Shown here piece after piece: positions 33,723-62,638 of a stretch of DNA of 64,000 nucleotides (position 1 is its first letter; each line of letters starts with the position of its first letter). The notes under the pieces were generated by a model. The model made no database searches. It had not been told where the DNA came from and saw only the letters and a list, made by a program, of their open reading frames with translations. The position numbers and the translations under genes are program-made. The DNA is from Flavobacterium sp. YJ01 (lineage in GTDB: Bacteria > Bacteroidota > Bacteroidia > Flavobacteriales > Flavobacteriaceae). The DNA is taken from assembly GCF_029320955.1 (NCBI RefSeq), contig NZ_CP119757.1, forward strand, positions 5,270,001 to 5,334,000, written 5' to 3'.

Positions 33723-33726
33723 GATC

Positions 33727-35087: not shown

Positions 35088-35151
35088 CTGCCGGGGGCTG
35101 GAAAAACCTTCCAAAGTCAGGTTTTTTTGCAGAAGTCAAAATGGATTTGTT

Positions 35152-35589
35152 ATGAAACAGGAAAATAATGGTAAAGCAAACAGAGGCGGCAGGAATCCTA
35201 AAATCGATCCCAGCATACACAGGCATGTTTTTCGTCTGACTGAAAACGAAAATGCTGAGTTTTTATCGATGTATGAATCGTCAGGAATGAATAATAAGGC
35301 GAAATTTATCATATCGATTTTGTTTGGAAAGGAAGTGAAGACTATTAAATTAGACAAAGGAACAATTGATTTTTACATGCGGCTGACCACATTCTACAGC
35401 CAGTTCCGGTCGGCTGGGGCGAACTATAATCAGATTGTAAAACTGCTGTACCGCAATTTTTCGGAGAAAAAAGCGTCAGCCTATCTGTACAAACTCGAAA
35501 AACAGACCGCTGAACTTGCTGCCTTATGCCAAAAAATTATTCTTATTGCAGAAGAATTTGAAGAAAAATACCTTAAAAAACTGCCTTGA
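35152..35589 (+). CDS. mobA: Mobilisation accessory protein MobA
   Basis: 145 residues from MKQENNGKANRGGRNPKIDP; a further upstream frame runs through the oriT hairpins and is not believable. HRHVFRLTENENAEFLSMYE is a ribbon-helix-helix-like start, and FRSAGANYNQIVKLLYRNF is the hallmark MobC/BfmA-type motif ('G-NyNQi'). Such proteins bind oriT and help the relaxase. It ends one base before the relaxase start. Confidence 0.9.
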   Translation: MKQENNGKANRGGRNPKIDPSIHRHVFRLTENENAEFLSMYESSGMNNKAKFIISILFGKEVKTIKLDKGTIDFYMRLTTFYSQFRSAGANYNQIVKLLYRNFSEKKASAYLYKLEKQTAELAALCQKIILIAEEFEEKYLKKLP

Positions 35590-35590
35590 A

Positions 35591-36877: not shown

Positions 36878-36953
36878 CGTTGCTTTGTTTACTTATGTTT
36901 TCTAGTCGGATTTAACAAACCAATACCAATCCTGTATTATATGATTAAAAACC

Positions 36954-36987
36954 TTGTTCCGCCACTAGGCCCTTTTTGCTATATTTG
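36954..36987 (+). promoter_or_regulatory. Bacteroidota-type promoter for the DUF1016 gene
   Basis: TTG at 36954-36956 and TATATTTG at 36980-36987, with 23 nt between. This fits the TTG / TAnnTTTG consensus of Flavobacterium and Bacteroides promoters. The ATG follows 25 bp later. Confidence 0.65.
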
Positions 36988-37012
36988 TCCATATCCTAAC
37001 TGTTCCTTTGCT

Positions 37013-38047
37013 ATGAATGATGAAATTATAAAAAGCAGTGACTACATAAACTGGTCGGCCTTTATTTTCAATAAAATAAAGCATGCCCAAACCCAGGCTG
37101 CTCTTAAAGTCAATGCCGAAATGCTTGCACTATATTGGGAAATTGGAAGTTCCATAATTGAGAAACAACAGCAGAATAGCTGGGGCAGCAAGGTAATTGA
37201 CCTTTTGGCAGCTGATTTAGTCCGCAATTTCCCTGACAGCAGAGGTTTTTCTGTGCGCAACCTTAAGTATATGAGGGCTTTTTCCGAGGCATACCCTGAT
37301 TTTCCAATCGTGCAAGTTCCGCTTGCACAATCGGAAAACCAATTTGTGCAAGTCCCACTTGCACAAATTACCTGGTATCACCATATAAGCCTTTTGGCAA
37401 AAGTAAAAGATGTGGCGGAACGGGCATTTTATATAGCTGAAACGTCTAAAAATGAATGGAGCAGGGACGTAATGCTTTTACAGGTGCAAAGCAATCTGTA
37501 TTCCAGAAGCGGAAAAGCATTGCATAATTTTGAGCAGACACTGCCCGAATATCAATCGGATTTGGCGAAAAGCATTTTTAAAGACCCTTATAATTTTGAT
37601 TTTTTAATGCTTTCCGCAAAAGTCAAGGAACTTGAAATTGAAAAACTTTTGATAGAAAAGATCGCAGACTTTTTATTGGAGCTTGGAAAAGGATTTGCAT
37701 TTGTGGGAAGGCAATACGCAATCGAGGTTGATAATACCAGCTACAAAATTGATTTACTTTTTTACCATACCATCCTGCACGCATATGTCGTAATAGAGCT
37801 CAAGGCAGGTGAATTTATGCCCGAGTACGTTTCCAAGCTTAACTTTTACATTAGCGCTATAGACGATTCACTCAAAACTTCGGCAGATGAGCGCACTATC
37901 GGCCTGCTGCTTTGCGCATCGAAAAGCAACATTAAAGTCGAATATGCAATGCGCGGTCTAGATAAGCCTTTAGGAGTCGCCACTTATCAATTGGAGCAGT
38001 TTGTAAAGGAAAATATTGACAAATTAGATAATGCCGGACAGGAATAA
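37013..38047 (+). CDS. DUF1016 / YhcG-type PDDEXK nuclease-like protein
   Basis: 344 residues from MNDEIIKSSDYINWSAF. An N-terminal DUF1016 helical domain (ALYWEIGSSIIEKQQQNSWG, SVRNLKYMRAFSEAYPD) is followed by the PDDEXK core: FAFVGRQYAIEVDNTSYKID, then FYHTILHAYVVIELKAGEF. Asp and E-x-K (IELKAGEF) give the catalytic pattern. YhcG relatives are associated with mobile elements and restriction-like loci; the function is not settled. Two palindromes inside the gene code for duplicated VQVPLAQ. It has its own promoter and a downstream terminator, so it is an independent cargo gene set between mobB and mobC. Confidence 0.9.
   Translation: MNDEIIKSSDYINWSAFIFNKIKHAQTQAALKVNAEMLALYWEIGSSIIEKQQQNSWGSKVIDLLAADLVRNFPDSRGFSVRNLKYMRAFSEAYPDFPIVQVPLAQSENQFVQVPLAQITWYHHISLLAKVKDVAERAFYIAETSKNEWSRDVMLLQVQSNLYSRSGKALHNFEQTLPEYQSDLAKSIFKDPYNFDFLMLSAKVKELEIEKLLIEKIADFLLELGKGFAFVGRQYAIEVDNTSYKIDLLFYHTILHAYVVIELKAGEFMPEYVSKLNFYISAIDDSLKTSADERTIGLLLCASKSNIKVEYAMRGLDKPLGVATYQLEQFVKENIDKLDNAGQE
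37300..37369. repeat. Two palindromic units inside the DUF1016 gene
   Basis: Unit 2 is perfect: 13-bp arms at 37341-37353 and 37357-37369 around CCC. Unit 1 (37300-37338) is an imperfect palindrome with the same core GTGCAAGT ... CTTGCAC. Both read as VQVPLAQ in the protein, so the coding frame is kept through the repeat. Confidence 0.8.
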
Positions 38048-38080
38048 TCGATTTAGCAAGTGTCTGCAATAATGTTTAAG

Positions 38081-38114
38081 CCTTCAAATTCATTTGATTT
38101 TGAAGGTTTTTTTA
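38081..38114 (+). terminator. Intrinsic terminator after the DUF1016 gene
   Basis: CCTTCAAA (38081-38088) pairs with TTTTGAAGG (38098-38106), followed by TTTTTTT. The remaining bases to 38294 show no gene. Confidence 0.8.
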
Positions 38115-38294
38115 TTGTGGAGCGAAGGATCGTCACGCTATAAATATACGCCAGCACTATATTGAGAAAAAAAAGTTAAAAAACAAAATCCGATTATCGA
38201 GCCAAAGACGGCGAGCTGCTGCCAAATTCCGATATATTCTAATAGTCGGCATGTACAGCATTTAAATTAACGCTCGGACATAAACATTTTTAAA

Positions 38295-40304
38295 ATGCAG
38301 GGAGATGATGATTTAAGAGGGCTTGCCAAGATAATGGCATTTATGAGGGCAGTAAGCGTATTGATAGTACTGATGCATTTGTACTGGTACTGCTATGGCT
38401 TCTTTGTGGACAGGGGTTGGACATTACAAGCCGTCAATAAAATATTAAGGGGATTTGACCGCACGGCAGGATTGTTTTCCAACACGCTTTACACGAAAAT
38501 TTTTGCATTACTGCTATTGGCTTTAAGCTGTCTTGGAACAAAGGGAGTAAAGAACCAGAAAATTACCTGGACTAAAATCTTTAGCTCTTTTGGCGCCGGT
38601 TTTGTTCTTTACTTTTTAAATACGCCATTATTAGCTCTGCCAAAGCAAACAGCCGCGTTCTTCTATATTCTAACATTGGGACTGGGTTATACTGCCTTGA
38701 TGATGACAGGGGTGTGGAGCAGCCGCCTTTTACGGACTAATCTGATGTCAGATGTATTCAATAACGAGAATGAGAGTTTTCATCAGGAGACCAGACTCAT
38801 GCAAAATGAGTTTTCTGTCAATCTTCCTACTAGATTTTATTATAAAAACAAATGGAACAAGGGCTGGATTAATATCGTAAATCCATTTAGGGCGACAATT
38901 GTTCTAGGTACTCCCGGATCTGGCAAATCATATGCAATAGTCAACAATTACATCAAGCAGCAGATCGAAAAAGGCTTTTCGATGTATATCTATGATTTCA
39001 AGTTCGACGACCTTTCCACAGTTGCCTACAATCATCTATTGAAGCATCATAACAATTACATAGTCAAACCGAAATTCTACGTGATCAACTTCGACGATCC
39101 AAGGAAAAGCCACCGCTGCAATCCGCTTAATCCTGATTTTATGACGGATATTTCGGATGCCTACGAAGCGGCATATACCATAATGCTTAATCTGAATAGG
39201 AGCTGGATACAGAAGCAGGGCGATTTCTTTGTAGAAAGCCCTATTATTCTATTGGCGGCCATTATATGGTTTCTGAAAATCTATGAAAATGGAAGGTACT
39301 GCACTTTTCCGCATGCCATTGAGCTGTTGAATAAAAAATATGCCGACGTGTTTACTATCCTTACCTCTTATCCAGAGCTGGAAAACTACTTGTCACCGTT
39401 TATGGATGCATGGCAGGGGGGGGCCCAAGACCAGCTGCAGGGGCAGATTGCGTCGGCGAAAATTCCTCTATCCCGTATGATTTCTCCAAGCCTTTACTGG
39501 GTTATGACAGGCGATGATTTTTCCTTGGACATCAACAATCCGAAAGAACCTAAGATACTATGTGTTGGAAACAATCCCGACCGCCAGAATATTTATTCGG
39601 CTGCACTGGGATTATACAATTCACGCATTGTAAAGCTGATCAATAAAAAGGGTCAATTGAAAAGCTCGGTCATTATAGACGAGCTGCCTACCATTTATTT
39701 TCGCGGACTTGATAATCTGATTGCCACTGCCCGAAGCAATAAAGTGGCTGTGTGTCTAGGCTTTCAGGATTTTTCGCAATTGAACCGTGATTACGGAGAC
39801 AAAGAGAGCAAGGTTATTCAGAATACTGTGGGCAATATTTTCAGCGGGCAGGTGGTCGGAGAAACGGCAAAAAGCCTTTCGGAGCGATTCGGTAAAGTAT
39901 TGCAGAAAAGGCAGAGCATGAGCATCAACCGCAATGATACATCGACTTCAATATCCACGCAATTGGACAGCCTGATACCGGCATCAAAAATATCTACATT
40001 AACGCAAGGTTTTTTTGTTGGTGCCGTATCGGATAATTTTGAGGAGCGAATAGAGCAGAAAATTTTCCATGCTGAAATTGTTGTTGATAATGCAAAGATT
40101 GCTGCTGAATCCAGAACCTATCAAAAGATACCGCAGATCTTATCTTTTGCAGCTGAAAATGGAGACGATAATATGAAAACAGAGATTGATGCCAATTATA
40201 GGAAGATAAAAAGAGATATAATTCGGGTTATTGAACTGGAACTGAAACGTATTAAAAACGATCCGGACTTGCAGCATTTAGTGCAAAAAGAGCAAAAAAA
40301 ATGA
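38295..40304 (+). CDS. mobC: VirD4-type coupling protein (MobC/TraG-like)
   Basis: 669 residues. Three or four membrane helices at the N-terminus (MAFMRAVSVLIVLMHLYWY; FALLLLALSCLGTKG; FYILTLGLGYTALMM). Walker A near residue 205: IVLGTPGSGKSYAIVNN. SVIIDELPTIYFRGLDNLIA contains the Walker B region and CLGFQDFSQLNRDYG follows. It docks relaxosome DNA to the secretion channel. It is placed 247 bp after the DUF1016 gene and is convergent with topB. Confidence 0.92.
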   Translation: MQGDDDLRGLAKIMAFMRAVSVLIVLMHLYWYCYGFFVDRGWTLQAVNKILRGFDRTAGLFSNTLYTKIFALLLLALSCLGTKGVKNQKITWTKIFSSFGAGFVLYFLNTPLLALPKQTAAFFYILTLGLGYTALMMTGVWSSRLLRTNLMSDVFNNENESFHQETRLMQNEFSVNLPTRFYYKNKWNKGWINIVNPFRATIVLGTPGSGKSYAIVNNYIKQQIEKGFSMYIYDFKFDDLSTVAYNHLLKHHNNYIVKPKFYVINFDDPRKSHRCNPLNPDFMTDISDAYEAAYTIMLNLNRSWIQKQGDFFVESPIILLAAIIWFLKIYENGRYCTFPHAIELLNKKYADVFTILTSYPELENYLSPFMDAWQGGAQDQLQGQIASAKIPLSRMISPSLYWVMTGDDFSLDINNPKEPKILCVGNNPDRQNIYSAALGLYNSRIVKLINKKGQLKSSVIIDELPTIYFRGLDNLIATARSNKVAVCLGFQDFSQLNRDYGDKESKVIQNTVGNIFSGQVVGETAKSLSERFGKVLQKRQSMSINRNDTSTSISTQLDSLIPASKISTLTQGFFVGAVSDNFEERIEQKIFHAEIVVDNAKIAAESRTYQKIPQILSFAAENGDDNMKTEIDANYRKIKRDIIRVIELELKRIKNDPDLQHLVQKEQKK

Positions 40305-48537: not shown

Positions 48538-49482
48538 ATGAAAAATCCTCACAACCGCCAACGGATGGTATCGATGCACAAGATGTTGTTTGAAATGGCA
48601 AGAGGCAATTTCAATAACCAGATTCCTTTGAGCAGCTTCGATGACGAAATTGAAACATTGGTTGTCCTGGTCAATATGGTTGCGGAAGAACTCAAAGAGT
48701 CTGCCTTCCACTCGGGTTTTGTCAACCCCTACATTACTCATAGAATGGTGACGCCCGCTACTTTTATTTTAGACGAAAATCATTCGATAAAAGATGTGAA
48801 TCAAGGAGCATTGAAAATTTTGGGATATGATTCGGCAGAAATGCTCAACAGGCCAATTAAGGAATTCCTTCTGGATGATTTCTCGGATATGTCAGATATC
48901 GAGAAAAGAGAGCTCGAAGAAATGCTTTTATCTGGCGAAATAATTACACTGAATTTTTTAACATACAAAAAGCTGATAGTAAGTGCCGAGTGTTCGGTAT
49001 CTAGATTATCGGACGGTAAATTTACGGTTCTCAGTTTCATAACGCCTTTTCTCCAGCTTGATGAAGATGTTACGGAGGTCCACGAAATAGCAGAGCAGAG
49101 GCATCATAATTTTAGAAAAGCCGATGCGCGCCTGATCCAGCGTGTTTATGATTATGTATTGGATAATTTGGCAGAGCCACTGCCGTCAGTAAAGGAACTT
49201 GCAAGACTTTTTGGAACAAATGATTTTAAGCTTAAAGACGGGTTCAGGTATTTTTTCCATACAAGCATTTATAAGTTTTATACAGAGGAAAGGCTCAAAA
49301 GAGCACACCTAATGATTGAGCAGACCGATATTCCCTTGAAGAATATTTCTTTTATGAATGGCTTTAACAGCTATCCCAACTTTTCCAAATCATTCAAAAA
49401 ACGATTTGGAACCTCTCCTAACGAGGTAAGCCGAAACAATACTGGGAATCTTTTTTATGAAAGGGACATTAATCCCTCTTAA
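48538..49482 (+). CDS. PAS-domain AraC-type regulator
   Basis: 314 residues. N-terminal HAMP-like helices (MHKMLFEMARGNFNNQIPL, IETLVVLVNMVAEELKESA), then a PAS domain (TPATFILDENHSIKDVNQGA, ILGYDSAEMLNRPIKEFL). The C-terminal AraC pair of helix-turn-helix motifs is at LPSVKELARLFGTNDFKLK and IPLKNISFMNGFNSYPNFSK, ending FGTSPNEVSRNN. It probably senses a small molecule and controls the local cluster. Confidence 0.87.
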   Translation: MKNPHNRQRMVSMHKMLFEMARGNFNNQIPLSSFDDEIETLVVLVNMVAEELKESAFHSGFVNPYITHRMVTPATFILDENHSIKDVNQGALKILGYDSAEMLNRPIKEFLLDDFSDMSDIEKRELEEMLLSGEIITLNFLTYKKLIVSAECSVSRLSDGKFTVLSFITPFLQLDEDVTEVHEIAEQRHHNFRKADARLIQRVYDYVLDNLAEPLPSVKELARLFGTNDFKLKDGFRYFFHTSIYKFYTEERLKRAHLMIEQTDIPLKNISFMNGFNSYPNFSKSFKKRFGTSPNEVSRNNTGNLFYERDINPS

Positions 49483-49561: not shown

Positions 49562-51052
49562 ATGAAGCTTAGTTTAGGGACAACTTTTAAAAAGTATTTT
49601 GTAGAGCTAGTCTGCTTTTTATTTATTCTGCTTTTTATATATGCCGCAGTAAGCAAAGCGATGGACTTTGAGAATTTCCGCGCCCAAATAGGACAGTCTC
49701 CGCTCTTAAGCCCATTTGCAAATTTTATATCAGTGGGCGTTATCGTGGCCGAAGTAATGATTTCAATTCTGCTGGCTGTCCCAAAAGCCAAATATCTTGC
49801 ACTCTGGCTAGCTGCCGCATTAATGGCAATGTTTACGGCATACATCATCATCATACTTAATTTCAGTTCATTCATACCTTGCTCATGTGGGGGTATTTTG
49901 GAGAAGATGGGATGGGGACAGCATCTTGTTTTTAATATCGCATTCCTTTTTATGGCAATGGCAGCTGTTAAGTTGAGCACTAAAGACAATGGAGTTTTAT
50001 TAAAACTTTGTGGAGTTGCAATCGCCAGTGCGGGCATGGTGGTTATTTTATTTGTTTTTTCTGAGGATATAATGGAAAGGGAAAATCCCTTTATAAGACG
50101 TTTTCCCAAAGCTTCTGCTGCAAAGACCAATATGCTTGATCTTCGAAATTATTCGTATTATATTGCAGGTGCTCATGGTAATAAAATTTATCTTGGCAAT
50201 TGGAAAGCTCCTCTTGAGATACTTGAAACAGACTCGAATTTCAAATATACCGTTAAGCATACCATTATCTTGAATAGGGAAAACTATAGCTATAAAGCCG
50301 TGGAGGTTAGAATCCATTATCCTTATTTTTATGTTATGGATGGTACCGTGCCAGTCATTTATAGAGGACTGGTTTCAAACTGGAAGGCATCGGTACTTAC
50401 AGAGGGAAAGTTCCATTTTTCCAGTATTGTTTTCCTTGATCCAAATCAGTTTGCCTTCCGCACTCAAAAGCCTCCATCAGGCGAGAATATCATGGGTTAT
50501 GGCATAGGTTATCCAGCACCACATATTCAGTATAGTGATGAGGTATTTCAAAAGCAAAAGGATGGAATTTTTGACACAGACGGAACACTGCAGTACAGCG
50601 ATAAAATGCAGAATATAATATTCACCTATTATTACAGGAACCAGTATATCATTGCTGAGAATAATCTCAAAGTTAAGGCTAGACCGCGCACCATAGACAC
50701 TACTGTCCACGCAAAGTTAAAAGTGGTAAAATTAGAAAAGTCTGGAGATATAAAATTAAGCGCGCCTCCCTATACCGTCAACAGAAACACTTCTGTAATC
50801 GGAAAATTGCTTTTTGTCAATTCAATGCTTAGAGGAAGATACGAAGATGAGAAGGTATGGAAAAATGCAACCGTAATTGATGTCTACGATATTGCGAAAC
50901 AGACTTACGTGCTTAGTTTTTATGTCTATGATCAGACGCAGAATATCAAAATGGGAAGCTTTTTTGCGGCAGACTCTGCGCTATATGCCATTTCAGGACA
51001 TTATCTGCTTAAGTATGAATATGGCAAAAGAATCAATTCAATAATCTATTAG
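49562..51052 (+). CDS. MauE/DoxX-type redox membrane protein with beta-propeller-like tail
   Basis: 496 residues. Residues 1-165 form four membrane helices with IYAAVSKAMDFENFRAQIG and FSSFIPCSCGGILEKMGWGQ, the CxCGG motif of MauE-like redox-associated proteins. Residues 180-496 form a secreted or periplasmic beta-rich domain (YIAGAHGNKIYLGNWKAPLE; VIDVYDIAKQTYVLSFYVY) that looks like a six-blade-type propeller. It is followed by a DUF6520-type Cys peptide, a pairing also seen in other Flavobacteriia from memory. It may reduce or oxidise thiols of the small peptide; this is inference. Confidence 0.82.
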   Translation: MKLSLGTTFKKYFVELVCFLFILLFIYAAVSKAMDFENFRAQIGQSPLLSPFANFISVGVIVAEVMISILLAVPKAKYLALWLAAALMAMFTAYIIIILNFSSFIPCSCGGILEKMGWGQHLVFNIAFLFMAMAAVKLSTKDNGVLLKLCGVAIASAGMVVILFVFSEDIMERENPFIRRFPKASAAKTNMLDLRNYSYYIAGAHGNKIYLGNWKAPLEILETDSNFKYTVKHTIILNRENYSYKAVEVRIHYPYFYVMDGTVPVIYRGLVSNWKASVLTEGKFHFSSIVFLDPNQFAFRTQKPPSGENIMGYGIGYPAPHIQYSDEVFQKQKDGIFDTDGTLQYSDKMQNIIFTYYYRNQYIIAENNLKVKARPRTIDTTVHAKLKVVKLEKSGDIKLSAPPYTVNRNTSVIGKLLFVNSMLRGRYEDEKVWKNATVIDVYDIAKQTYVLSFYVYDQTQNIKMGSFFAADSALYAISGHYLLKYEYGKRINSIIY

Positions 51053-51150
51053 TAAGAAAATATAAAGAATATACCGGCCGGTAGCAGGATCTTGACCGAA
51101 AACCTGTAGAAAAGAGTAGGTCTCTAATAAATAATTAAATTTTAGATATT

Positions 51151-51420
51151 ATGAAATCAACAATTTTAAAAGCATTTGCTCTGCCATTGGCAGCATTTGC
51201 TCTAGCAAGCGCTGGCGCAGCCAGCACTGCTGATGCGGAAAAAAGTAAAACATCTGCAGTGATTCAAGCTTACATCCACAATCCTGCAGAGGATGATTGT
51301 GAGCCTGTAACTGTAAATTGTGAGCCAGGAAACGGGCAATTATGTACCAGCGGTTCTTTTGAGGCCTATGGAAAAGATAATGAAAACAGTGATTGTAATG
51401 TCCAATTGCGCCGCCTTTAG
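51151..51420 (+). CDS. Short secreted Cys-containing peptide (DUF6520 type)
   Basis: 89 residues with a Sec signal (LPLAAFALASAGAASTADAE, cut near residue 28). The mature part is about 60 residues with four Cys: DDCEPVTVNCEPGNGQLCTS and NSDCNVQL. The pattern fits the DUF6520 family. It is 98 bp after the MauE-type gene and followed by a perfect terminator, so the two are probably co-expressed. Role unknown: a disulphide-bonded secreted peptide is all the sequence shows. Confidence 0.8.
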   Translation: MKSTILKAFALPLAAFALASAGAASTADAEKSKTSAVIQAYIHNPAEDDCEPVTVNCEPGNGQLCTSGSFEAYGKDNENSDCNVQLRRL

Positions 51421-51446
51421 ATGAATCAAATTATTAACAAAAGATA

Positions 51447-51479
51447 ATGCAGTTTCAAATTGAAACTGCATTTTTTTTC
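51447..51479 (+). terminator. Strong intrinsic terminator after the DUF6520 gene
   Basis: AATGCAGTTTCAAATTGAAACTGCATT is split as two 12-13-bp arms (51447-51459 and 51460-51472) forming a perfect palindrome, followed by eight T. It can act for both the rightward peptide gene and the leftward S9 fragment. Confidence 0.9.
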
Positions 51480-51482
51480 CGG

Positions 51483-51985
51483 CTAGTCATTGGAAGTTCC
51501 GTAAGAAATCCATTCGGCCGTTTTTTTACCTTTTAAAAAATAGTCAAACCACTCCATAATCCTCCTGCTAAGGTCTTCCTGATTTGAAGCTTTTTTAAGG
51601 TTATGGTCTTCTGTAGGGTAGATCAGCATTACACTTGGCTTTTTAAGCTTTCTAAGCGCGAGGTAGTAAGCCACACTTTGGGTGTAGGGGACAACGCGGT
51701 CTTCCTTCCCTGACCAAAGAAGTAGAGGAGTATTTATTTTATCGGCATTTAAAAGCGGATTATTTTTTAGATAGTTTTCCTTTTTTTCAAAAAGTGAGTT
51801 TCCTATTCGATACTGCTGGCTTTCAAATCGCCACATCTCTGACTGTGCAATTCCATTTCTGCTGATGTTGAAATAGTACCCTATAATGTTGCTGATCCCG
51901 GCACCGGATGCCGCTGCGGAAAATAGCCCTGTCTGCGAAATAATGAAATTAGCCTCATATCCTCCGAAGGAATGACCATAAAGTC
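51483..51985 (-). pseudogene. S9 family peptidase, C-terminal fragment
   Basis: The frame is open from 51977 to the stop at 51483-51485 and encodes the catalytic alpha/beta-hydrolase part of a prolyl-oligopeptidase-type enzyme: GLYGHSFGGYEANFIISQTG (Ser nucleophile), LLLWSGKEDRVVPYTQ (Asp) and LIYPTEDHNLKKA (His). The N-terminal propeller and start are missing; a stop (TGA) lies just upstream of the conserved PGLYGHS. The break is at about 51983-51987, where it meets the serine recombinase fragment. Presumed inactive. Confidence 0.85.
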
Positions 51986-52694
51986 CGGGTCAGTGGACAG
52001 CATGAGGCAATTATCAGCGAGGGATTGTTTTATCGGGTGCAGGATGTTCTTGACAGTAAAGCGCGGACATACAGGCCGAAAATTAAGACTATTGAGAATT
52101 TTCCATTGCGGGGCTTTTTTCTTTGCCCAAAGTGCGGCCAGAAGTTAACTGGAAGTAAATGCAAAGGAAGAAGCAAATATTATTACTATTATCACTGCGA
52201 TAAAGATTGCAGATGGAGAATAAATTCAGAGGTAGTTAATAAAATATTTAAAGAACATTTAAATAAATTAAAACCTTTAGCGGAAGTAAAGAAATTATAC
52301 ACGGCAGTTCTGCTTGAAGCTTACAGAGAGCATACAGGTGTGGTCGCCAATGAAAAGAAGAAATCCCTTGAGCAGATTGCAGTTTATGAAAAGAAATTAT
52401 CAGTTGCCAGAAATTTGCTGGTTACAGAGAAAATAGATCCTGAAGATTATAATCTCATGAAAGCGGAGTACAATGCTGTTATAAGCAAGCTGGAAAAAGA
52501 GATTGGAAATGTAGAAGATGATAGGGCTAATATAGAGCAGTTAACGAACTCAGGACTGGAAAACCTTATAAAACTCGGGGAGACCTTTGAAAATGGGACT
52601 TTAGCTGATTCCAGGGAGATGATTGGTTTAATTTTTCCTGAAAATTTCACATTTGAAGAAAAGAAAATCCGCACCGCCCGGATCAATGAATTCT
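51985..52694 (+). pseudogene. Large serine recombinase, C-terminal fragment
   Basis: The recombinase frame is open from the junction: VSGQHEAIISEGLFYRVQDV is the usual start of the recombinase domain's second half, then FFLCPKCGQKLTGSKCKGRS with a later C-DKDCRW (zinc ribbon), and a coiled coil of about 60 residues. It ends near RTARINEFF, the usual end of Flavobacteriia recombinases. The catalytic N-terminal resolvase domain with the Ser nucleophile is missing. It is joined in frame to the pectate lyase (next entry). Confidence 0.88.
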
Positions 52695-55600
52695 TTAATG
52701 GCGAAGGAAAAATCGAAGTGAAGAAAGAAGCTACTAATGGTAATAATGATCCAGTTCCTGCATTTCCAGGTGCAGAAGGCTACGGTAAATATGTTACAGG
52801 CGGACGCGGCGGAAAGTTGATTTATGTTACTAATTTAAATGATTCTGGTGCAGGATCGCTTCGTGATGCAATCGGTCAGGCTGGTCCAAGAATTGTTGTT
52901 TTTAAAGTGTCTGGAAATATTGAATTGAAAAGTGAGTTAAACATAACAGATAATATCACAATTGCTGGACAAACAGCGCCAGGTGGTGGAATTACCTTGA
53001 AAGATTACAATGTAAAAGTAAGAGGGAATAACGTCATTCTTCGTTATTTGCGTTTTAGAATGGGAGATACTCATGATGTTGAAAATGATGCTTTAGGCGG
53101 ACGTTTTCAAAAGAATATCATTGTAGATCACTGTTCTATGAGCTGGTCAACGGATGAATGCGTTTCTTTCTATCAAAATGAAAATTTCACTATGCAATGG
53201 TGTATTATTTCTGAAAGTCTTAGAAATTCGGTTCATGCAAAAGGTGCGCACGGATATGGAGGTGTTTGGGGAGGTAAAAATGCTTCATTCCATCATAATT
53301 TATTAGCGCATCATGATAGCCGTAATCCGAGATTAGGAGAATACGCAAATGATATTTTTGCTAAAACAGATTTAGTTGATATTCGTAACAACGTAATTTA
53401 CAATTGGGGAGGAAATAGCTGTTACGGCGGAGATGCCATGAATGTAAATCTGGTAAATAATTATTGGAAACCAGGACCTGGGACATCTAATTCGACAAAA
53501 GAACGTATTTTATCAACAGGAAGAAGTTTAGATACGACTTCGCCATTGTATGGAATTTGGGGTAAATATTTCGTTGATGGAAATTATGTTGTAGGATCAG
53601 AAAGAGCAACTCAAGACAACTGGACGTATGGAGTTTATAGTCAGTTTCATGGAAGCCAGCTTCCTGTAAGTGATGCTGATAAAGCTGCATTAAAAATTAG
53701 CGCGCCACATGCATTTGGTGAAATTACAACGCACAGCGCTACAAAAGCCTACGAATTAGTTTTAGAAAATGCGGGTTCAAATTTATACCGAGATGCTGTA
53801 GACAAAAGAGCCGTAGACGATACTCGTTCTGGTACAGCTAGTATTATGAATGGCGGTAACGGAAGTACTAATGGTTATATAGACACACCTTCAGCAACAG
53901 GCGGATGGCCAGTATTACCTTCTGGAGAAGCTCCTGTTGATACAGATGGTGATGGTATGCCTGATAAATGGGAAACAGAAAAGGGATTAAACCCCGCAAG
54001 TTCTGCCGACGGTAATTTAAAAACAATTGATGGAAAGTATACAAATGTTGAGGTATATATTAATAGTATTGTAGATAATCTTGTTTCAAACCAAAATGGA
54101 AGTTTAGATGTATATGTAAATCCGCAAAACTTTGTAGAAAAATATAATGCTGCTGAAAATGGTTCAAAATTTATTATGGCAAGCGGAACTTATACTGCAA
54201 CAACCGATTTAGCGGTTAAAAATCATAAATATACTTTTGTTCCTGATGCTGGAGCAAAACCCATTTTTGCTGGATCTTTCTACTCAGAAAATCCTGAAAT
54301 CTTCTCAGGAAGCTTCAGTTTTGACGGTGTTGATTTTGATTTGACAAATGCTGGAGCAAATGTATTGCAACTGAAAAAAGGTGCTTCAATAGCTGGTTTC
54401 GAAATCAAAAATGCTTCTATCAAAGGAATCAAACAAAGTTTATTGCTGACAGAAGGAACTAGCGAAAAACCTATTTCAAAAGTTGTTTTAGAAAACTGTA
54501 TTATTGACGGAAGTGCAGCTACAGGCAGCAGTTTTATTCTAGCAGATTCTCGAATTGTCAATTCAGTTTCGGTTAAGAAATCCACTATTTTTAATTATGA
54601 AAAGGGAAATAATTTTATAACGCTGCAAAATAAAAATACAGCAAACGAAACTATAAATATAACTTTTGAAAGTAATACGATTTATAATTCAGGCAATCAG
54701 GCTGGAAATGGTTTTGTGTTTGTAGATAATCAATATAATAGTGCTTCGACGTATTCTTTCAAAAATATCATTATGCAAGATGAACGTGATAATCCTAAAC
54801 CGATTTATCTGTTCAATTCTAATAATGTAAACGGAGCAGGAAAATTAGTTTTAGAGAATAATCTTCTAGTTGGTGTTTCTTCTCAAATAGTTAAAGGAAC
54901 GGTTACAGTTACAGAAACAAATGCTAAGACATTAAATGGTTTAGGAATGACAGTACTTGTGTTTCCAAACCCAGCGCAAGGAAATTTTAGTTTCTCTAAA
55001 GATTCTCCATTAGCCAAAGCTTCTTCAGAGGGAAATGCTTTAGGAGATCCAAGATGGTTAAAAGCAGATGCGAAGTTTTCTAAAATAAGTTATATCAATG
55101 CTATTGACGGAAAAGCCATAACACTTTCTCCAGCAGAATATATGGAAGGAGCTTTGACAAATTTAAAATCGCCAAAATTAGAAAGTTATACCTTCTTTGG
55201 TTGGTCTGCTTCTGCAACAACTCCAGGATTAATTAAAACAATTGCTGCAACAGCAACGGGAGATCAAACTTTTTATGCTTTTTGGGGAGAAGGCGGAAAT
55301 AATAAACCTGATCCAAAACCTATTGTAAAATCAGGTGTTTCATATTTAAATTCTATTGATGGAAAAGTTATTTCAGGATTAAATCCTGTAGAATATACAG
55401 AAGGAACGGTATTGGCATTGCCAACTCCAACCTTAAAGGATTATACTTTCTACGGATGGTCTGCTTCTTCAACAACACCAAATACAATTAAAGAAATTGC
55501 TGCTTCTTCAACAGGAAATCAAACATTTTATGCTTTCTGGGGCGTTGGCGGTAATAATAAACCTGATGAGGTAATTCAGCCGACTTTTTATACCATTTCG

Positions 55601-56023
55601 TATTTAAATATGCCATCTGGAGCGACCAATCCAAATAAAACAAGCGTGCAGACCGGAACTGCTTTTACATTAGAAATGGCGCAATGTACAGGTTATCGTT
55701 TTCTAGGTTGGTATGCTGATTCCTTATACGCAAAAGAAATAACAGGTTTTACAAATAAGCAGACAGAGAATTTTACACTTTACGGACGTTGGAAGAAATT
55801 GGGCGAATTTTTAGCATTTCCAACTATTACAACAGGAAAACTAACATTGCAATCAAGTACAGAATTTGATCGTCTGGCTATTTTCAGCATGAGCGGGCTC
55901 TTGGTAAAACAAGTGGAACTTATTGGTTCTGAAATGGAAATTTCTGTTTCTGATTTGGCTTCTGGAAGCTATTTCATTAAAAGCTTAAAAACAGGAAATT
56001 CAACAAGAATAATTGTAAAATAA
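52025..56023 (+). CDS. In-frame fusion: recombinase fragment + pectate lyase
   Basis: One open frame of 1332 codons. Residues 1-223 come from the recombinase; from about 224, and clearly from PAFPGAEGYGKYVTGGRGGK (about residue 245), it is a PL1-type pectate lyase. The catalytic region includes NVILRYLRFRMGDTHDVEN, IIVDHCSMSWSTDECVSFY and HHNLLAHHDSRNPRLG. A Ca-binding DTDGDGMPDKWETEKGLNPA lies near residue 640. A DUF4957/DUF5123-type region follows, then three Listeria-Bacteroides-type repeats (TFYGWSASSTTPN-like) and a T9SS-type sorting domain (residues about 1258-1332, FPTITTGKLTLQ). No signal peptide remains and the start is a TTG. Export and activity are therefore doubtful. Confidence 0.9.
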   Translation: MFYRVQDVLDSKARTYRPKIKTIENFPLRGFFLCPKCGQKLTGSKCKGRSKYYYYYHCDKDCRWRINSEVVNKIFKEHLNKLKPLAEVKKLYTAVLLEAYREHTGVVANEKKKSLEQIAVYEKKLSVARNLLVTEKIDPEDYNLMKAEYNAVISKLEKEIGNVEDDRANIEQLTNSGLENLIKLGETFENGTLADSREMIGLIFPENFTFEEKKIRTARINEFFNGEGKIEVKKEATNGNNDPVPAFPGAEGYGKYVTGGRGGKLIYVTNLNDSGAGSLRDAIGQAGPRIVVFKVSGNIELKSELNITDNITIAGQTAPGGGITLKDYNVKVRGNNVILRYLRFRMGDTHDVENDALGGRFQKNIIVDHCSMSWSTDECVSFYQNENFTMQWCIISESLRNSVHAKGAHGYGGVWGGKNASFHHNLLAHHDSRNPRLGEYANDIFAKTDLVDIRNNVIYNWGGNSCYGGDAMNVNLVNNYWKPGPGTSNSTKERILSTGRSLDTTSPLYGIWGKYFVDGNYVVGSERATQDNWTYGVYSQFHGSQLPVSDADKAALKISAPHAFGEITTHSATKAYELVLENAGSNLYRDAVDKRAVDDTRSGTASIMNGGNGSTNGYIDTPSATGGWPVLPSGEAPVDTDGDGMPDKWETEKGLNPASSADGNLKTIDGKYTNVEVYINSIVDNLVSNQNGSLDVYVNPQNFVEKYNAAENGSKFIMASGTYTATTDLAVKNHKYTFVPDAGAKPIFAGSFYSENPEIFSGSFSFDGVDFDLTNAGANVLQLKKGASIAGFEIKNASIKGIKQSLLLTEGTSEKPISKVVLENCIIDGSAATGSSFILADSRIVNSVSVKKSTIFNYEKGNNFITLQNKNTANETINITFESNTIYNSGNQAGNGFVFVDNQYNSASTYSFKNIIMQDERDNPKPIYLFNSNNVNGAGKLVLENNLLVGVSSQIVKGTVTVTETNAKTLNGLGMTVLVFPNPAQGNFSFSKDSPLAKASSEGNALGDPRWLKADAKFSKISYINAIDGKAITLSPAEYMEGALTNLKSPKLESYTFFGWSASATTPGLIKTIAATATGDQTFYAFWGEGGNNKPDPKPIVKSGVSYLNSIDGKVISGLNPVEYTEGTVLALPTPTLKDYTFYGWSASSTTPNTIKEIAASSTGNQTFYAFWGVGGNNKPDEVIQPTFYTISYLNMPSGATNPNKTSVQTGTAFTLEMAQCTGYRFLGWYADSLYAKEITGFTNKQTENFTLYGRWKKLGEFLAFPTITTGKLTLQSSTEFDRLAIFSMSGLLVKQVELIGSEMEISVSDLASGSYFIKSLKTGNSTRIIVK

Positions 56024-56100: not shown

Positions 56101-56751
56101 ATGAATAATAGTATAAAATTATTAGTGCTTTTTTTCATTACTTTATTGTCATCTTGTTCAAGTGATGATGAAAGTAATCAAGATACTAATTCAAATAAAG
56201 GATTTTTAAAAATTGGCAATCAGACGGTAGAATTATCGCAAGGATATCTTGAAAATTATGGTATTCGAGGAAATGCTTACAATATTGATTTTTCGTTACG
56301 ATCTAAATCAATTTCTGAAAAAGAAGATGGAGCAGTTGTATATTTTGAATTGTTTTCTTCGCTTCAAAATAATTTAGCAAAAGGCGATTATAGTTTTGCA
56401 GGATATTCGGAAGCAACTGCGTATACTTTTACAAAATGGGGACAATCCATTCTGGGTAAAAATATTAATCCAGGAAAAGGAGATTTGTCTGTTTCAAATG
56501 GAGTAAGCATAAGACCTTTGAGCGGCACTTTTAAAGTTGCAGAAAATGGTCAGAAGTATAAAGTTAGTTTTACAGGAAAAGGTACAGCAAGTATTTATAA
56601 AGACGGAGTTCTTGCTTCAACTCAAAATGATGTTGCTTTCAGCATGCAATATTATGGGGATGTAAAAAAATCCGAAGGCAAAAATTTTACTGCCAAAAAA
56701 CTTAATTCATCCGAATTAATTCAAAAAGATCATTCTATTCTATTTAATTGA
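56101..56751 (+). CDS. Hypothetical lipoprotein of the PUL
   Basis: 216 residues. Lipobox LLSSC (Cys19) with the acidic SSDDES that follows, suggesting surface export in Bacteroidota. The rest is beta-rich with FLKIGNQTVELSQGYLENYG and KYKVSFTGKGTASIYKDG. No known family is recognised. It is 77 bp after the pectate lyase and before a terminator, so it is probably co-transcribed with it. Confidence 0.7.
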   Translation: MNNSIKLLVLFFITLLSSCSSDDESNQDTNSNKGFLKIGNQTVELSQGYLENYGIRGNAYNIDFSLRSKSISEKEDGAVVYFELFSSLQNNLAKGDYSFAGYSEATAYTFTKWGQSILGKNINPGKGDLSVSNGVSIRPLSGTFKVAENGQKYKVSFTGKGTASIYKDGVLASTQNDVAFSMQYYGDVKKSEGKNFTAKKLNSSELIQKDHSILFN

Positions 56752-56778
56752 TCTTTAAATAATAGATTTTAATAGCAA

Positions 56779-56808
56779 AGAGCCTGATTTTTTCAGGCTC
56801 TTTTTTTT
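56779..56808 (+). terminator. Intrinsic terminator after the lipoprotein gene
   Basis: GAGCCTGA (56780-56787) pairs with TCAGGCTC (56793-56800), followed by eight T. Confidence 0.9.
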
Positions 56809-56910
56809 GTTTTTGTGCAAAAGTAAGCTTCAAATAATAAATAAAAACAAATAAAGTCCAGATAAATCTGAAGTTGAGCCATCATGTTTAATATGTCTAT
56901 TTTTTTGATT

Positions 56911-56948
56911 AATCTGTCCATCTTTAAAATATGCATTAGCAGTAATTT
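56911..56948 (+). promoter_or_regulatory. Shared upstream motif, copy 1 (before GH89)
   Basis: A 38-nt segment containing TGTCCAT and, 23 nt further on, CAGTAATTT. By eye 26 of 38 positions agree with the copy before the SusC gene at the same spacing. It may bind the PUL regulator. Confidence 0.5.
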
Positions 56949-57166
56949 TATTTTCGATCCAAACACGGTTTACTTTTATTGCATTTTGCTCTAATTAAAT
57001 ATGGAGAGATATTTTTTGAAAGTAGGTAATAAAAACAAAAAGTAAAAGGTTGTTGATTAGTAAATATTTTGTTAGTTTTTATTAGTTCGGGAGATTAATT
57101 CATCATTTAATCTCCCTTATTTTTTTGTTTACAAATGCAATGTTATAATTTATTAAATCCGAGAAT

Positions 57167-59341
57167 ATGAAAAGAATGAATTTTAAAATCAAAAACTATA
57201 ATTGCCTCAGATTGGCTATGCTTTTTCTGTCGTTGTTATTTTTCGGTTCCTTAAAAGGATACTCTAAGAATGACGAAAAAACAAAAAATGCGGCTGCTGT
57301 ATTAGAAAGACTTATTGGTAATCGTGTTAATGAATTTGAATTGACTATTGTTGAAAATAAATCAGAACATAAAGATTGGTTTGAAGTAGAAACAACCGCA
57401 AATCTTGTAAAAATTAAAGGTTCAAACAACACGGCAATCTGTTATGCGGCTTATAATTTTCTTCGAGATATTGGAGCTGTGTTAGTAAGCTGGGAAGGAA
57501 ACAAAGTCAATTTGCCTAAAACTTGGCCAAAATATTCCAAAAAAGGAAATACGCCTTTTGAATATAGAGAATATTTAAATGCTTGTACTTTTGGCTACAC
57601 AACTCCTTGGTGGGATTGGAATCGTTGGGAACAAGAAATCGATTGGATGGCCATGCACGGTATCAATCTTCCAACAGCTATGGAAGGTCAGGAAGCAGCA
57701 TGGCAGGAATTATGGAAAGAATACGGCTTAACAGATAGCCAGTTAGAAGCACATTTTGCTGGGCCAGCTTATTTGCCTTGGCAGCGTATGGGAAATATTA
57801 ATAGTTTAGAAGGACCTTTGCCAAAAGAATGGTTTACTAAAAAACAGGAACTTCAAAAGAAAATTTTAGAAAGAATGCGAGCTTTAGACATGCATCCGGT
57901 TGTGCCTGCTTTTAGCGGTTATGTTCCTAAGGCTTTCGCCGAAAAACATCCTGAAGCCAAAATAACAGAATTAAAATCTTGGTCAGGCGGAGGTTTTGCA
58001 AGTACTTTTCTGGTAGATTCAAAAGATCCGTTATTTAAAAAAATCGGAAAACGCTTTATTGAAATTTACACTAAAATGTATGGAAAATCTAATTTCTACT
58101 TGGCAGATTCTTTTAATGAAATTGAACCTCCAGTTTCTGAACATAATAAATATGAAGAACTGGCAAATTACGGAAGCGCTATTTATGAAACCATTAATGA
58201 AGCAGCTCCCGGTGCAGTTTGGGTAATGCAAGGTTGGCTTTTTGGCGATAATAAAGAATTTTGGACAAAAGAAGCGACAAGTGCATTTCTTAGCAAAGTG
58301 CCAAACGACCGCTTAATGGTTCAGGATTATGCAAATGACCGTTACAAAGTATGGGAAAATCAGGAAGCTTTTTACGGAAAGCAATGGACTTACGGGTATG
58401 TACATAATTATGGAGGATCTAATCCAGTTTATGGAGATTTGAATTTCTATAAAAACGAATTAACGAGTTTATTGAAAAATCCGAATAAAGGAAATGTTGT
58501 CGGTTACGGCGCAATGCCAGAAGGCTTGAATAATAATTCTATTGTTTACGAATATATTTATGATCTTCCGTGGAGCAAAGGAGAACAGCCTGTAAAAGAT
58601 TGGCTAACAAAATATTTAAATGCTAGATATGAACAGCATACCGTTTCTAAACCAATTTTTCAAGCTTGGCAATTATTATTAGAATCTGTTTATAATGTCA
58701 AATATTGGGAAACGCGTTGGTGGAATGATAGAGCTGGAGCGTACTTGTTTTTTAAACGTCCAACCGCAACTATTACAGAATTTAAAGTAAATCCTGGAGA
58801 CAAGAAAAAACTCAAAGAAGCTTTGGATATTTTAACTAAAGAAGCGAAGAAATACAATCAGAACAATTTTATTCAATACGATTTAATCGATGTTTCGAGA
58901 CATTATTACTCTTTAATTATTGATGAAGAATTGATGGAATGTGTAGCATCTTATCAGAAAAAAGATATTGCAAAAGGAAATCAATTATTTAAAAAAATAG
59001 AAAAACAAGCTTTGGATATTGATAATATAATGTCGGCACAGCCATTAAATAGTTTAGATCAATGGGTAAAATCTGCTTCAGATTATGGAAGTTTACCAGC
59101 AGTTTCTAAATTGTATGCAAAAAATGCTAAAACATTAATTACACTTTGGGGCGGAGAAGGTCATTTGAATGATTATGCGTCTAGATCTTGGCACGGAATG
59201 TATAAAGGTTTTTACTGGCCAAGATGGAAAATGTTTTTAGAAGCTTTAAAAAAATCAGCAGAAAATAATACTCCATTTGATGAAACAAAAGAAAGAGAAT
59301 TAATTAAAAATTGGGAAATTAATTGGATAGAAAATAATTAA
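57167..59341 (+). CDS. GH89 alpha-N-acetylglucosaminidase
   Basis: 724 residues with a Sec signal (LRLAMLFLSLLFFGSLKGYS). NAGLU layout: an N-terminal alpha/beta domain (NNTAICYAAYNFLRDIGAVL), the TIM-barrel with WEQEIDWMAMHGINLPTAM, the acid/base region SNFYLADSFNEIEPP, and QPVKDWLTKYLNARYEQH in the C-terminal helical part. It releases terminal alpha-linked N-acetylglucosamine from glycans. Upstream motif and terminator suggest its own promoter. A start three codons later is possible. Confidence 0.93.
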   Translation: MKRMNFKIKNYNCLRLAMLFLSLLFFGSLKGYSKNDEKTKNAAAVLERLIGNRVNEFELTIVENKSEHKDWFEVETTANLVKIKGSNNTAICYAAYNFLRDIGAVLVSWEGNKVNLPKTWPKYSKKGNTPFEYREYLNACTFGYTTPWWDWNRWEQEIDWMAMHGINLPTAMEGQEAAWQELWKEYGLTDSQLEAHFAGPAYLPWQRMGNINSLEGPLPKEWFTKKQELQKKILERMRALDMHPVVPAFSGYVPKAFAEKHPEAKITELKSWSGGGFASTFLVDSKDPLFKKIGKRFIEIYTKMYGKSNFYLADSFNEIEPPVSEHNKYEELANYGSAIYETINEAAPGAVWVMQGWLFGDNKEFWTKEATSAFLSKVPNDRLMVQDYANDRYKVWENQEAFYGKQWTYGYVHNYGGSNPVYGDLNFYKNELTSLLKNPNKGNVVGYGAMPEGLNNNSIVYEYIYDLPWSKGEQPVKDWLTKYLNARYEQHTVSKPIFQAWQLLLESVYNVKYWETRWWNDRAGAYLFFKRPTATITEFKVNPGDKKKLKEALDILTKEAKKYNQNNFIQYDLIDVSRHYYSLIIDEELMECVASYQKKDIAKGNQLFKKIEKQALDIDNIMSAQPLNSLDQWVKSASDYGSLPAVSKLYAKNAKTLITLWGGEGHLNDYASRSWHGMYKGFYWPRWKMFLEALKKSAENNTPFDETKERELIKNWEINWIENN

Positions 59342-59545
59342 AAAAAGACTTTCTTGATAATTAATCCGTATATAAACAAAATTTAACTTAATACTTAAAC
59401 CATAACCTTAAACTACACCAAAAATATGAAATGAAAAACTACGAAATCGATTAATTAATAGGTATTTAATTATAGAAAATTATAAAAATAACTTTGAAAA
59501 GCCTTGCTGTCATTGACTTTATTGAAATTATCCATGTTTATGAAT

Positions 59546-59583
59546 AACTTGTCCATTTGCTAACATTTCTTTAACAGTAATTT
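59546..59583 (+). promoter_or_regulatory. Shared upstream motif, copy 2 (before susC)
   Basis: TGTCCAT and CAGTAATTT at the same spacing as the copy at 56911-56948. It ends 43 bp before the SusC ATG. Confidence 0.5.
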
Positions 59584-59626
59584 CGTCAATACTATTTAAC
59601 CAATTAACCAATTAACCAATATCAAA

Positions 59627-62600
59627 ATGGAAAAACTTAAACTTTTATTATTAGCCTTTTTCTTTGGCTTCTCAATTAATACTTGGGCACAAAAAACAGA
59701 AGTGTCCGGTGTAGTTTTAGATGACAAAGGTATTCCTCTGCCAGCCGCGAACATACTCGAAAAGGGTACAACAAATACTGTAACAACAGATTTTGATGGA
59801 AAATTTAGATTTTCAGTTTCAAACAAAAATGCAGTATTAGTCATTTCTTTTATTGGATTTGATGATCAAACTTTAAAATTAGACGGAACAAAATCCAATT
59901 ATTCAATTAAATTACAATCTACTACAAACAATCTAGAACAAGTTGTTGTAGTTGGATACGGAAAAGGAAATCGTAAAAACCTTACCACTTCTGTAACTTC
60001 CATAAAAGCAGAAGAACTGAACAAAGGAGCAATTAGTGATGTTGGACAGCTTTTACAAGGTAAAGTTTCTGGTTTGAATATTTCTTCAAGCGGTGATCCA
60101 ACAAAAACAGCTTCTGTAGTGATGCGTGGAGTTTCGACATTAAATAGTTCTCAAGGACCATTTTATGTAATCGATGGTATTCCTGGAGTTGATATTTCGG
60201 TAATTTCACCAGACGATATCGCTTCAATTGACGTCTTAAAAGATGCTGCTGCAACGGCAATTTACGGTAACCGTGCTGCAAATGGAGTTATCATGGTAAC
60301 TACTAAAAAAGGTAGTAAAGGAAGAACACAAGTTGCTTACAATGGATATGTTGGTTTTGAAGAAGTTTCTAATAATCTGGATATGATGAATGCAGATCAG
60401 TTGAGAGCTTTTACAACTAAAAACAATTTGAACTTTACTCCAGAAAATGACAAAGGAGCAAACACAAACTGGTTAAAAGAAATTATGAGACCAAATCGTG
60501 CAGTATCTACAAGTCATAATTTATCTATGAGCGGAGGTGGAGATCACGGAAGTTATACGGCAAGTATTACATCTCTTAATAGAGAAGGGGTAATGCAGAA
60601 AAGTGATTTTTCTCGTATCATTGCTCGTTTGTCTGTAGAACAATTTGCTTTTGATGATAAAGTGAAATTCGGATTAAACGTTACCAATTCAAAAACAGAT
60701 TACCAAAACGTACCACAGCGTAATACGGTACTTCTGCAAGCAGCAAGTTATTTACCAGTTTCTCCAGTTAGAAATGCAGACGGAAGTTTTTACGAAAACT
60801 TTATTAGCCCAGGATATTTTAATCCAGTTGCTTTGATTGAACATGGAACAGATGAAACAACTACAAATAACCTTGTTGGTAATCTTACTGCTGAAGTAAA
60901 ACTTCCATTTGGAATTACTTACAATTTAAATTTAGCTCACCAAAGATTAACATCTTCTCACGGAGAATTTTATGACAGCTATTATTCACAATATAATAGT
61001 GCGAACTTTTACAACAACCCAGATCCACCTTTGACAAAATCGTTGGTTAACTTTGGTGTAAATGGTTCTGCTTTAAGAAATTCTTACGAAACTAGAAATA
61101 ACATTATCGAGAGTTTCTTTACTTGGGATAGAACTTTTGGATCTCATAAAGTAAAAGCTGTTTTAGGTTATTCTTGGCAAGAAAATACATTAGGAGACGG
61201 GTTTCAAGCAACTACAACAAATTTCCCTGTAGATAATGTAGGTTATAATAACCTTGCTTTAAGTAACTATACTTCTGTTAATGGTTATGTAGTGAATTTT
61301 GGTGATAGTAAAGCATATCAAAAAACACGTTTAATTGCTTACTTCGCACGTTTAAACTACAATTATAAAGATAAATATCTTTTACAAGGATCTATCAGAC
61401 GAGATGGTGGATCAATGTTTGGAGCTAACAACCAATGGGGATATTTCCCATCTGTGGGTGGTGCTTGGAGAATTGACAAAGAAAGCTTCATGCAAAATCA
61501 AGAATTTTTTAGTGACTTGAAATTGAGAGGAAGCTGGGGAGTTACAGGAAACTCTTCTGGATTTAATGCTTACACAGCGCAATTTATTTCTGGTAGTTTA
61601 GGAACTTTCTATTACAACGGACAACAAATTGGTGCTTACGGACCAAATCAGGCAGCGAATCCGGATTTGAAATGGGAAAAAACAGCTACTGCAAACATTG
61701 GACTTGATTTCTCAATCTTAAAAGGAAAAGTAACAGGTTCTGTTGACGTGTACGACAAGAAAACAACAGATATGATCTTCAACTACAATGTTAACCCAGT
61801 ACTTGTACCAGTTGGAACAATTGTAGCAAACGGTGGAACAATGTCTAACAAAGGTATCGAACTTAGCTTGAGCACAACTCCAGTTAAAACCGCAGATTTC
61901 AGCTGGACAACAAATTTAAACTTAGCTCATAACAAAAACGAAATTGTAAAATTAACAAGCCCATTCTTTGTTGGTGGAGATTCTATTCGTAGAGTTCAGC
62001 CTGATGGAGGGGGACAAACAGGAAGCACACTTCAGATTTTTAAAGAAGGAAAACCTTTAGGACAATTCTTTACTTTGAAATATGCGGGAAAAAATGCTGA
62101 TGGAGTTTCTCAGTATTATGACAAAAACGGTAATTTGACAACTACACCTCAAATCGGAGTAGATTATCATTATGCAGGAAGTGCACAGCCAAAATTATTG
62201 CTTGGATGGGGAAATAACTTTCAATACAAAAAATTTGATTTAAGCATTTTCTTCAGAGGAGTATTTGGAAACAAAATTTTCAATGCCACTCGTGCTGATT
62301 TGTTCAGACCAAGTACAGCAATGACCAATAATATTTTAGTTGACGCAGGAAACGAGTCACCAAACGACCTTAACTCTTATAAATACTCTGATCGTTTTAT
62401 TGAAGACGGTAGTTATTTAAGATTAGACAACATGACTTTAGGATATAATTTTGGTAAAGTTGGAAGGTATATCAGCAGTGTACGTATTTACCAAACGATT
62501 AACAATGTGTTTGTTATTACGAAGTACACAGGTATTGATCCAGAGGTTGAACAAGGAGGAACAGCTCCAGGTGTAGATTCTAATAACTTCTATCCAAAAA

Positions 62601-62638
62601 CTAGAACTTATATGTTCGGTTTAAACGTTAGCTTCTAA
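59627..62638 (+). CDS. SusC-type TonB-dependent receptor
   Basis: 1003 residues. Sec signal (FGFSINTWAQ), then a carboxypeptidase-like domain (VSGVVLDDKGIPLPAANILE; VLVISFIGFDDQTLKLDG), the TonB-box-like NNLEQVVVVGYG, the plug domain (VGQLLQGKVSGLNISSSGDP; DIASIDVLKDAAATAIYGNR) and a long beta-barrel ending YMFGLNVSF. SusC-type receptors import glycan fragments across the outer membrane with a SusD partner, which is the next gene. The sugar cannot be told from this sequence. Confidence 0.96.
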   Translation: MEKLKLLLLAFFFGFSINTWAQKTEVSGVVLDDKGIPLPAANILEKGTTNTVTTDFDGKFRFSVSNKNAVLVISFIGFDDQTLKLDGTKSNYSIKLQSTTNNLEQVVVVGYGKGNRKNLTTSVTSIKAEELNKGAISDVGQLLQGKVSGLNISSSGDPTKTASVVMRGVSTLNSSQGPFYVIDGIPGVDISVISPDDIASIDVLKDAAATAIYGNRAANGVIMVTTKKGSKGRTQVAYNGYVGFEEVSNNLDMMNADQLRAFTTKNNLNFTPENDKGANTNWLKEIMRPNRAVSTSHNLSMSGGGDHGSYTASITSLNREGVMQKSDFSRIIARLSVEQFAFDDKVKFGLNVTNSKTDYQNVPQRNTVLLQAASYLPVSPVRNADGSFYENFISPGYFNPVALIEHGTDETTTNNLVGNLTAEVKLPFGITYNLNLAHQRLTSSHGEFYDSYYSQYNSANFYNNPDPPLTKSLVNFGVNGSALRNSYETRNNIIESFFTWDRTFGSHKVKAVLGYSWQENTLGDGFQATTTNFPVDNVGYNNLALSNYTSVNGYVVNFGDSKAYQKTRLIAYFARLNYNYKDKYLLQGSIRRDGGSMFGANNQWGYFPSVGGAWRIDKESFMQNQEFFSDLKLRGSWGVTGNSSGFNAYTAQFISGSLGTFYYNGQQIGAYGPNQAANPDLKWEKTATANIGLDFSILKGKVTGSVDVYDKKTTDMIFNYNVNPVLVPVGTIVANGGTMSNKGIELSLSTTPVKTADFSWTTNLNLAHNKNEIVKLTSPFFVGGDSIRRVQPDGGGQTGSTLQIFKEGKPLGQFFTLKYAGKNADGVSQYYDKNGNLTTTPQIGVDYHYAGSAQPKLLLGWGNNFQYKKFDLSIFFRGVFGNKIFNATRADLFRPSTAMTNNILVDAGNESPNDLNSYKYSDRFIEDGSYLRLDNMTLGYNFGKVGRYISSVRIYQTINNVFVITKYTGIDPEVEQGGTAPGVDSNNFYPKTRTYMFGLNVSF

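Follow-up and report, generated by a model that had tools for sequence, protein, structure and literature searches.

A recombinase–pectate lyase fusion in a Flavobacterium genome as the probable scar left by two rearrangements at one end of a decayed ICE

The open frame in which a serine recombinase remnant runs into a pectate lyase in Flavobacterium sp. YJ01 is probably a scar that two separate rearrangements left at one end of a decayed ICE, the younger being an illegitimate joining to the middle of the lyase gene that left the two parts in frame by accident. The window, that is the whole stretch of 64,000 nucleotides analysed here, comprises bases 5,270,001–5,334,000 of a single-contig genome of 5.48 Mb. 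It was compared with relatives from the genus Flavobacterium, whose genomes are designated by G-numbers. As biology the fusion is ordinary, and the scar explains why the pectin genes of the window lack their first part. The presumably older of the two breakpoints, which lies in an S9 peptidase gene and recurs in several Flavobacterium genomes, matters more than the fusion and deserves follow-up.

The fusion ORF (52025–56023, + strand; 1,332 aa, TTG start) consists of the recombinase remnant and the 3′ half of the lyase. It contains no stop anywhere and its frame is already open from 51992. Near its start, Pfam gives Zn_ribbon_recom with 24.1 bits, just below the cut-off of 25.3, and farther down List_Bact_rpt, DUF5123, DUF4957 and the C-terminal sorting domain Por_Secre_tail, the last with 26.7 bits against a cut-off of 27. 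Three broken genes actually stand side by side here: a 3′ fragment of an S9 peptidase (51483–51986, − strand), a middle piece of the recombinase (51987–52690, + strand) and the lyase 3′ half (52691–56023, + strand). Similarity switches from recombinase to lyase at about 52686–52692 on the + strand, where GAA at 52688–52690 fits both sides in alignments with G243, G060 and G015. The original prediction, a mobile element's recombinase remnant running without a stop into a pectate lyase, was therefore right in its sequence observation; its switch point at residue 224–245 is only slightly displaced, the actual one being residue 221–222. That recombinase and lyase share one frame is chance, an event of about one in three, and is by itself no evidence of function.

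The recombinase piece derives from a large serine recombinase and has neither the Resolvase domain nor the C-terminal tail. Matches were obtained in 62 of 150 relatives, the closest being G060 (87%), G015 (85%), G052 (84%), G007 (77%) and G122 (77%), followed by G031 (58%). The homologues of G060, G052, G007 and G122, 77–87% identical in open frames of 505–518 aa, run on past the position of the lyase join. The intact recombinase of G060 (505 aa) carries Resolvase and Recombinase domains and a zinc ribbon just below cut-off. In the window Resolvase is absent, the Recombinase domain is mostly or wholly absent, and the sequence ends before the last 28–40 residues present in G060, G122 and G031; what remains is the zinc-ribbon/coiled-coil C-terminal part, 77–87% identical to the five closest relatives. 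Neither of the two Resolvase domains of the genome fits as the missing N-terminal half, one having no similarity to the N-terminus and the other belonging to a different recombinase (29% identity).

Profile matches place the ICE transfer region (TraG, CtnDOT_TraJ, TraM, relaxase and coupling protein) at 22462–40304. TraG matches TIGR03783 with 1647 bits, and the marks of a Bacteroidota conjugative element, TraG, TraJ, relaxase and coupling protein, are all present. Beside the transfer genes lies what we take to be an IS110-type transposase gene (21164–22282), and the element carries presumed arsenic-type resistance genes (9271–12421). Collinearity of the window with the related G007 ICE begins at about 2,923; in that ICE a recombinase adjoins DUF932 at the end matching the window's left. 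No recombinase was found at this position at the DUF932 end of the window. The ICE has therefore lost its integrase end, and we read the lyase join as a later rearrangement.

The other end of the element carries a cargo module. A PAS-AraC regulator (48538–49482, + strand; same order in G030) lies upstream of it, followed by a MauE-type membrane protein (49562–51052, + strand; PF07291, 109 bits), a DUF6520-like small peptide (51151–51420, + strand; PF20130, 22.9 bits against a cut-off of 25.4) and the S9 fragment (PF00326), which starts with PGLYGHSFGG right after a stop codon and has no usual start codon before 51836. In related genomes, the full module contains MauE, the DUF6520-like peptide and then convergent S9 (~880 aa), SusD and SusC; in G042 it sits between mobilisation and transfer genes. 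As the S9 protein weakly resembles lasso-peptide isopeptidases (93 bits against a cut-off of 400), it is conceivable that MauE and the DUF6520-like peptide beside S9-SusD-SusC form a module for peptide processing or uptake. G114 contains five consecutive DUF6520-like genes.

The natural end of the recombinase can be seen in the relatives. In four of the six closest (G060, G052, G122 and G031), and also in G243, tRNA-Arg(ACG) adjoins the recombinase end, and no tRNA was found beside it at the other two, G007 and the G015 copy at 214 kb. An attachment site in the lyase is therefore not what one would expect. G243 has the same ICE with its whole recombinase end, followed by tRNA-Arg and a gene presumed to be apt. 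The genome of the window has apt and tRNA-Arg at 183.4–184.1 kb on the other strand, and the recombinase tail is absent beside this locus (183–184 kb).

The lyase part corresponds to about residues 1,320–2,431 of the intact protein and is 94% identical to G015 C5:31361–34642. Lyase matches were found in 27 of the 100 relatives searched, the best being that of G015, whose open frame spans 2,438 codons. The comparison with uninterrupted copies is available in G015 (2,431 aa) and G042 (2,428 aa), and it bears out that the host gene is broken and lacks its start. The first half of the G015 lyase has CBM6 and pectinesterase domains, and the NCBIfam model PelZ (pectate lyase) matches residues 1341–1717 of the intact homologue, under its curated cut-off. 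In G015, G042, G051 and G060 the lyase is preceded, in conserved order, by two similar genes, which we take to be GH105- and GH28-like. The genes after the lyase (56101–62638, + strand) are collinear with G015, with 91% DNA identity in the 17 kb that follow the join, and further pieces collinear at 80–92% reach 5,369,734. With a dN/dS of 0.069 and zero stops, no decay is visible in the lyase part, so that recent loss and retained function are indistinguishable. As the lyase part is preceded by recombinase sequence, a signal peptide is not expected in the fusion; the product is unlikely to be exported, and secretion would thus have been lost.

The DNA before the lyase join was sought elsewhere in the genome. 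For G015 C5:25468–31309 and the lyase 5′ half, whole-genome searches by DNA and protein, in which 40 of 164 and all 14 candidates were scored, gave nothing but repeats and short paralogous matches. From G015 C5:1–20000, bases 1–579 alone match well (91% at 1.64 Mb), the next-best matches being 75% over 495 bases and 68% over 638, with 40 of 292 candidates scored; G015 C5:20001–25467 was compared with 4.99–5.48 Mb of the genome. We consider it unlikely that a single deletion, starting from an element at tRNA-Arg near the pectin genes, took the recombinase tail, the tRNA and the lyase 5′ half in one step. Such a deletion agrees with the present co-directional arrangement of recombinase and lyase and with the contiguity of the missing DNA in G015, but a tRNA-Arg/apt locus persists elsewhere in the genome, and the counterpart of bases 1–579 of the G015 contig is found at 1.64 Mb. 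Therefore, a translocation or inversion would also be needed, unless the tRNA was duplicated.

Much less probable is the integration originally proposed, in which the ICE inserted site-specifically in the 5′ part of the lyase, making the fusion attR and leaving the lyase 5′ half at attL. A recombinase that runs into a broken host gene does look like such a junction. Nevertheless, the break falls at about residue 1,320 of 2,431 rather than in the 5′ part; the recombinase is cut short of its own end, and the tRNA-Arg(ACG) at that end in most of its closest relatives argues against an attachment site inside the coding region. The lyase 5′ part, predicted at the other end of the ICE, was not found in the genome as far as the searches see, which is one of the outcomes named in advance as refuting the proposal. 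A site-specific integration scar was rejected, since these searches did not find the other half of the target at the opposite end of the element and the element's end is incomplete by comparison with relatives. A selected chimeric protein is the least credible reading: all 1,332 aa are open and dN/dS of the lyase part is low, but this ratio mostly records the time before the break, the Resolvase domain is absent, an export signal is not expected and the best relatives have the lyase in frames of ~2,430 codons instead.

The reading as a rearrangement scar would involve the following steps, the order of which we infer. In the older event, the S9 gene at the cargo end of the ICE would have been broken at GL-x-GHSFGG and what remained of it linked outward to the recombinase C-terminal part; both genes now lack their N-termini, and comparison with G030 shows that SusD and SusC are missing too. 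The related ICE of G243 has the same S9|recombinase join and is still located at tRNA-Arg. In the younger event, within the strain of the window, the recombinase tail and the tRNA flank would have been lost and the remnant joined to the middle of the lyase by illegitimate recombination. The sequence shared at this join is only ~3 nt, an overlap inferred from relatives; illegitimate joining at so few shared bases likely suffices. Deletion, inversion and translocation are candidate forms of this younger rearrangement, after which the lyase 5′ half and the preceding genes are missing.

The other edge of the recombinase piece, ~0.7 kb from the lyase join, abuts the S9 3′ fragment at 51986–51988, reading CCCGG in the S9 direction. 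The same S9 breakpoint, in GL-x-GHSFGG, was found in 14 copies joined at nine partner sites in tra genes, the recombinase gene and the chromosome. The partners are the recombinase (window and G243), the middle of TraG (G008:C6, G122:C37 and G277), the end of TraG (G008:C1), a TraK-like gene (own genome, 1,415,278), TraJ (own genome, 711,878 and 1,478,119; G242), a TraN-like gene (G057) and chromosomal DNA (G244, G397 and G030:C9). The names TraI, TraK and TraN are presumptive and follow similarity to the window's genes. Two ICE copies of the own genome (708–719 kb and 1474–1485 kb) have the same S9|TraJ join as G242 and are ~95% identical to each other in the 440 bases surrounding it. No description of S9 joins was found in the literature at the level of titles and abstract openings.

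Directly before the S9 part, CC is found in all 14 copies, in 12 at the identical two bases and in two (own 711,878 and G397) one base off. The YGG that follows is intact in 11 of the 14; its GG is altered in G122:C37, own 1,415,278 and own 711,878. Among 20 distinct full-length S9 sequences, the bases at the CC position are AT in 18 and GT in two, and none has CC within one base. Five copies (G243, G277, G244, G397 and G242) came from a CC-containing pattern and cannot test CC, but the nine obtained by a CC-blind protein search (the window, three more in the own genome, G008 twice, G122:C37, G057 and G030:C9) all have it. This protein-search count leaves out short-frame matches at contig edges (G092:C56, G020:C144 and G056:C25) and distant S9 families, and pattern matches that were full-length or lacked the S9 motif were dropped (G018, G011, G195, G243:C39, G323, G305 and G451). 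Kept outside the 14 is G122:C11:1403484–1403708: the TraG site is the usual one, but S9 begins at an internal CGG, perhaps through an internal deletion that came later. The intact homologues of the recombinase, TraG middle and TraG end partners carry the CC; it is therefore the partner's, with no obvious overlap between the two sides. CC was not present at that place in the aligned homologues of the TraK-like, TraJ and TraN-like partners. A scan of an 84,980-species collection for the CC form returned eight stretches, five in Flavobacterium and three in unrelated groups.

The number of events is smaller than the number of copies. The window and G243 share the S9|recombinase join with 82.7% DNA identity over 769 bases. 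For window positions 49710–51930 no DNA similarity with G243 was reported between flanks that are 80–83% identical, and the MauE proteins are only 43% identical. The module has likely been replaced through recombination in its conserved ends, to judge from this pattern, and since homologous replacement thus occurs within the module, the 14 copies cannot be counted as 14 separate events. The truncation of G244 looks young: its DNA diverges from the full-length G060 copy at this breakpoint, yet beyond it the two are 93.8% identical over 1,020 bases. A single old truncation was rejected because truncated copies are scattered among full-length ones in both the S9 and MauE trees. In the S9-C tree, where 11 of 31 rows are truncated, the starred branches force at least five changes, and in the MauE tree (8 of 22 rows) at least three; these changes may include losses, and the truncation label is hardly more clustered than when shuffled (43 of 500 S9-C and 198 of 500 MauE shuffles are as low).

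Reciprocal products were sought in 150 genomes. All 51 S9 N-terminal matches listed above 300 bits lie in frames of 853–972 aa, and none of these 51 is an S9 N-terminus alone; conservative inversion at the S9 joins is thus unsupported. Neither S9-N nor TraG-N was found around G008:C6 in the stretches examined. Mobility of the module with two fixed ends was also dismissed, since by eye there is no common boundary upstream of MauE.

Random decay would not be expected to repeat a breakpoint to about one base in 14 copies joined to nine partner sites, and the comparison of these sequences suggests an unrecognised fixed-end joining process. We tentatively propose, as a possibility short of an even chance, that the S9 gene in the cargo modules of Flavobacterium ICEs contains a defined DNA end (YGG of GL-x-GHSFGG), which an enzyme, perhaps the element's relaxase or a transposase-like recombinase, joins to CC-ending partner sites in tra genes, the recombinase gene and the chromosome without visible core homology or reciprocal product. 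Such joins could arise if a relaxase nicked S9 and transferred the strand, if a transposase recognised the end, or through an uncharacterised recombinase. The first fits in part: it agrees with joins in tra genes divergent to S9 and does not simply fit the recombinase join. If the joins are made by an enzyme, they would represent an uncharacterised way for ICEs to shed transfer genes while parts of their cargo stay behind in chromosomes.

Among known processes, IS-adjacent deletions and relaxase-mediated strand transfer resemble the S9 joins in combining a fixed end with many partner sites and in that no reciprocal product is found. They differ in that no IS is seen at the S9 joins and that S9 is an ordinary gene, in which a nic site is only putative. 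Large serine recombinases of integrative elements have Resolvase, Recombinase and zinc-ribbon domains; the window copy retains their C-terminal part and, unlike intact ones, is devoid of catalytic domain and C-terminal tail. The ICE itself shares TraG, CtnDOT_TraJ, TraM, relaxase and coupling protein with the CTnDOT-like ICEs of Bacteroidota, whereas its relatives are distinguished from these by a serine recombinase near the DUF932 end (G007, G122 and G052) and by the cargo module with S9-SusD-SusC.
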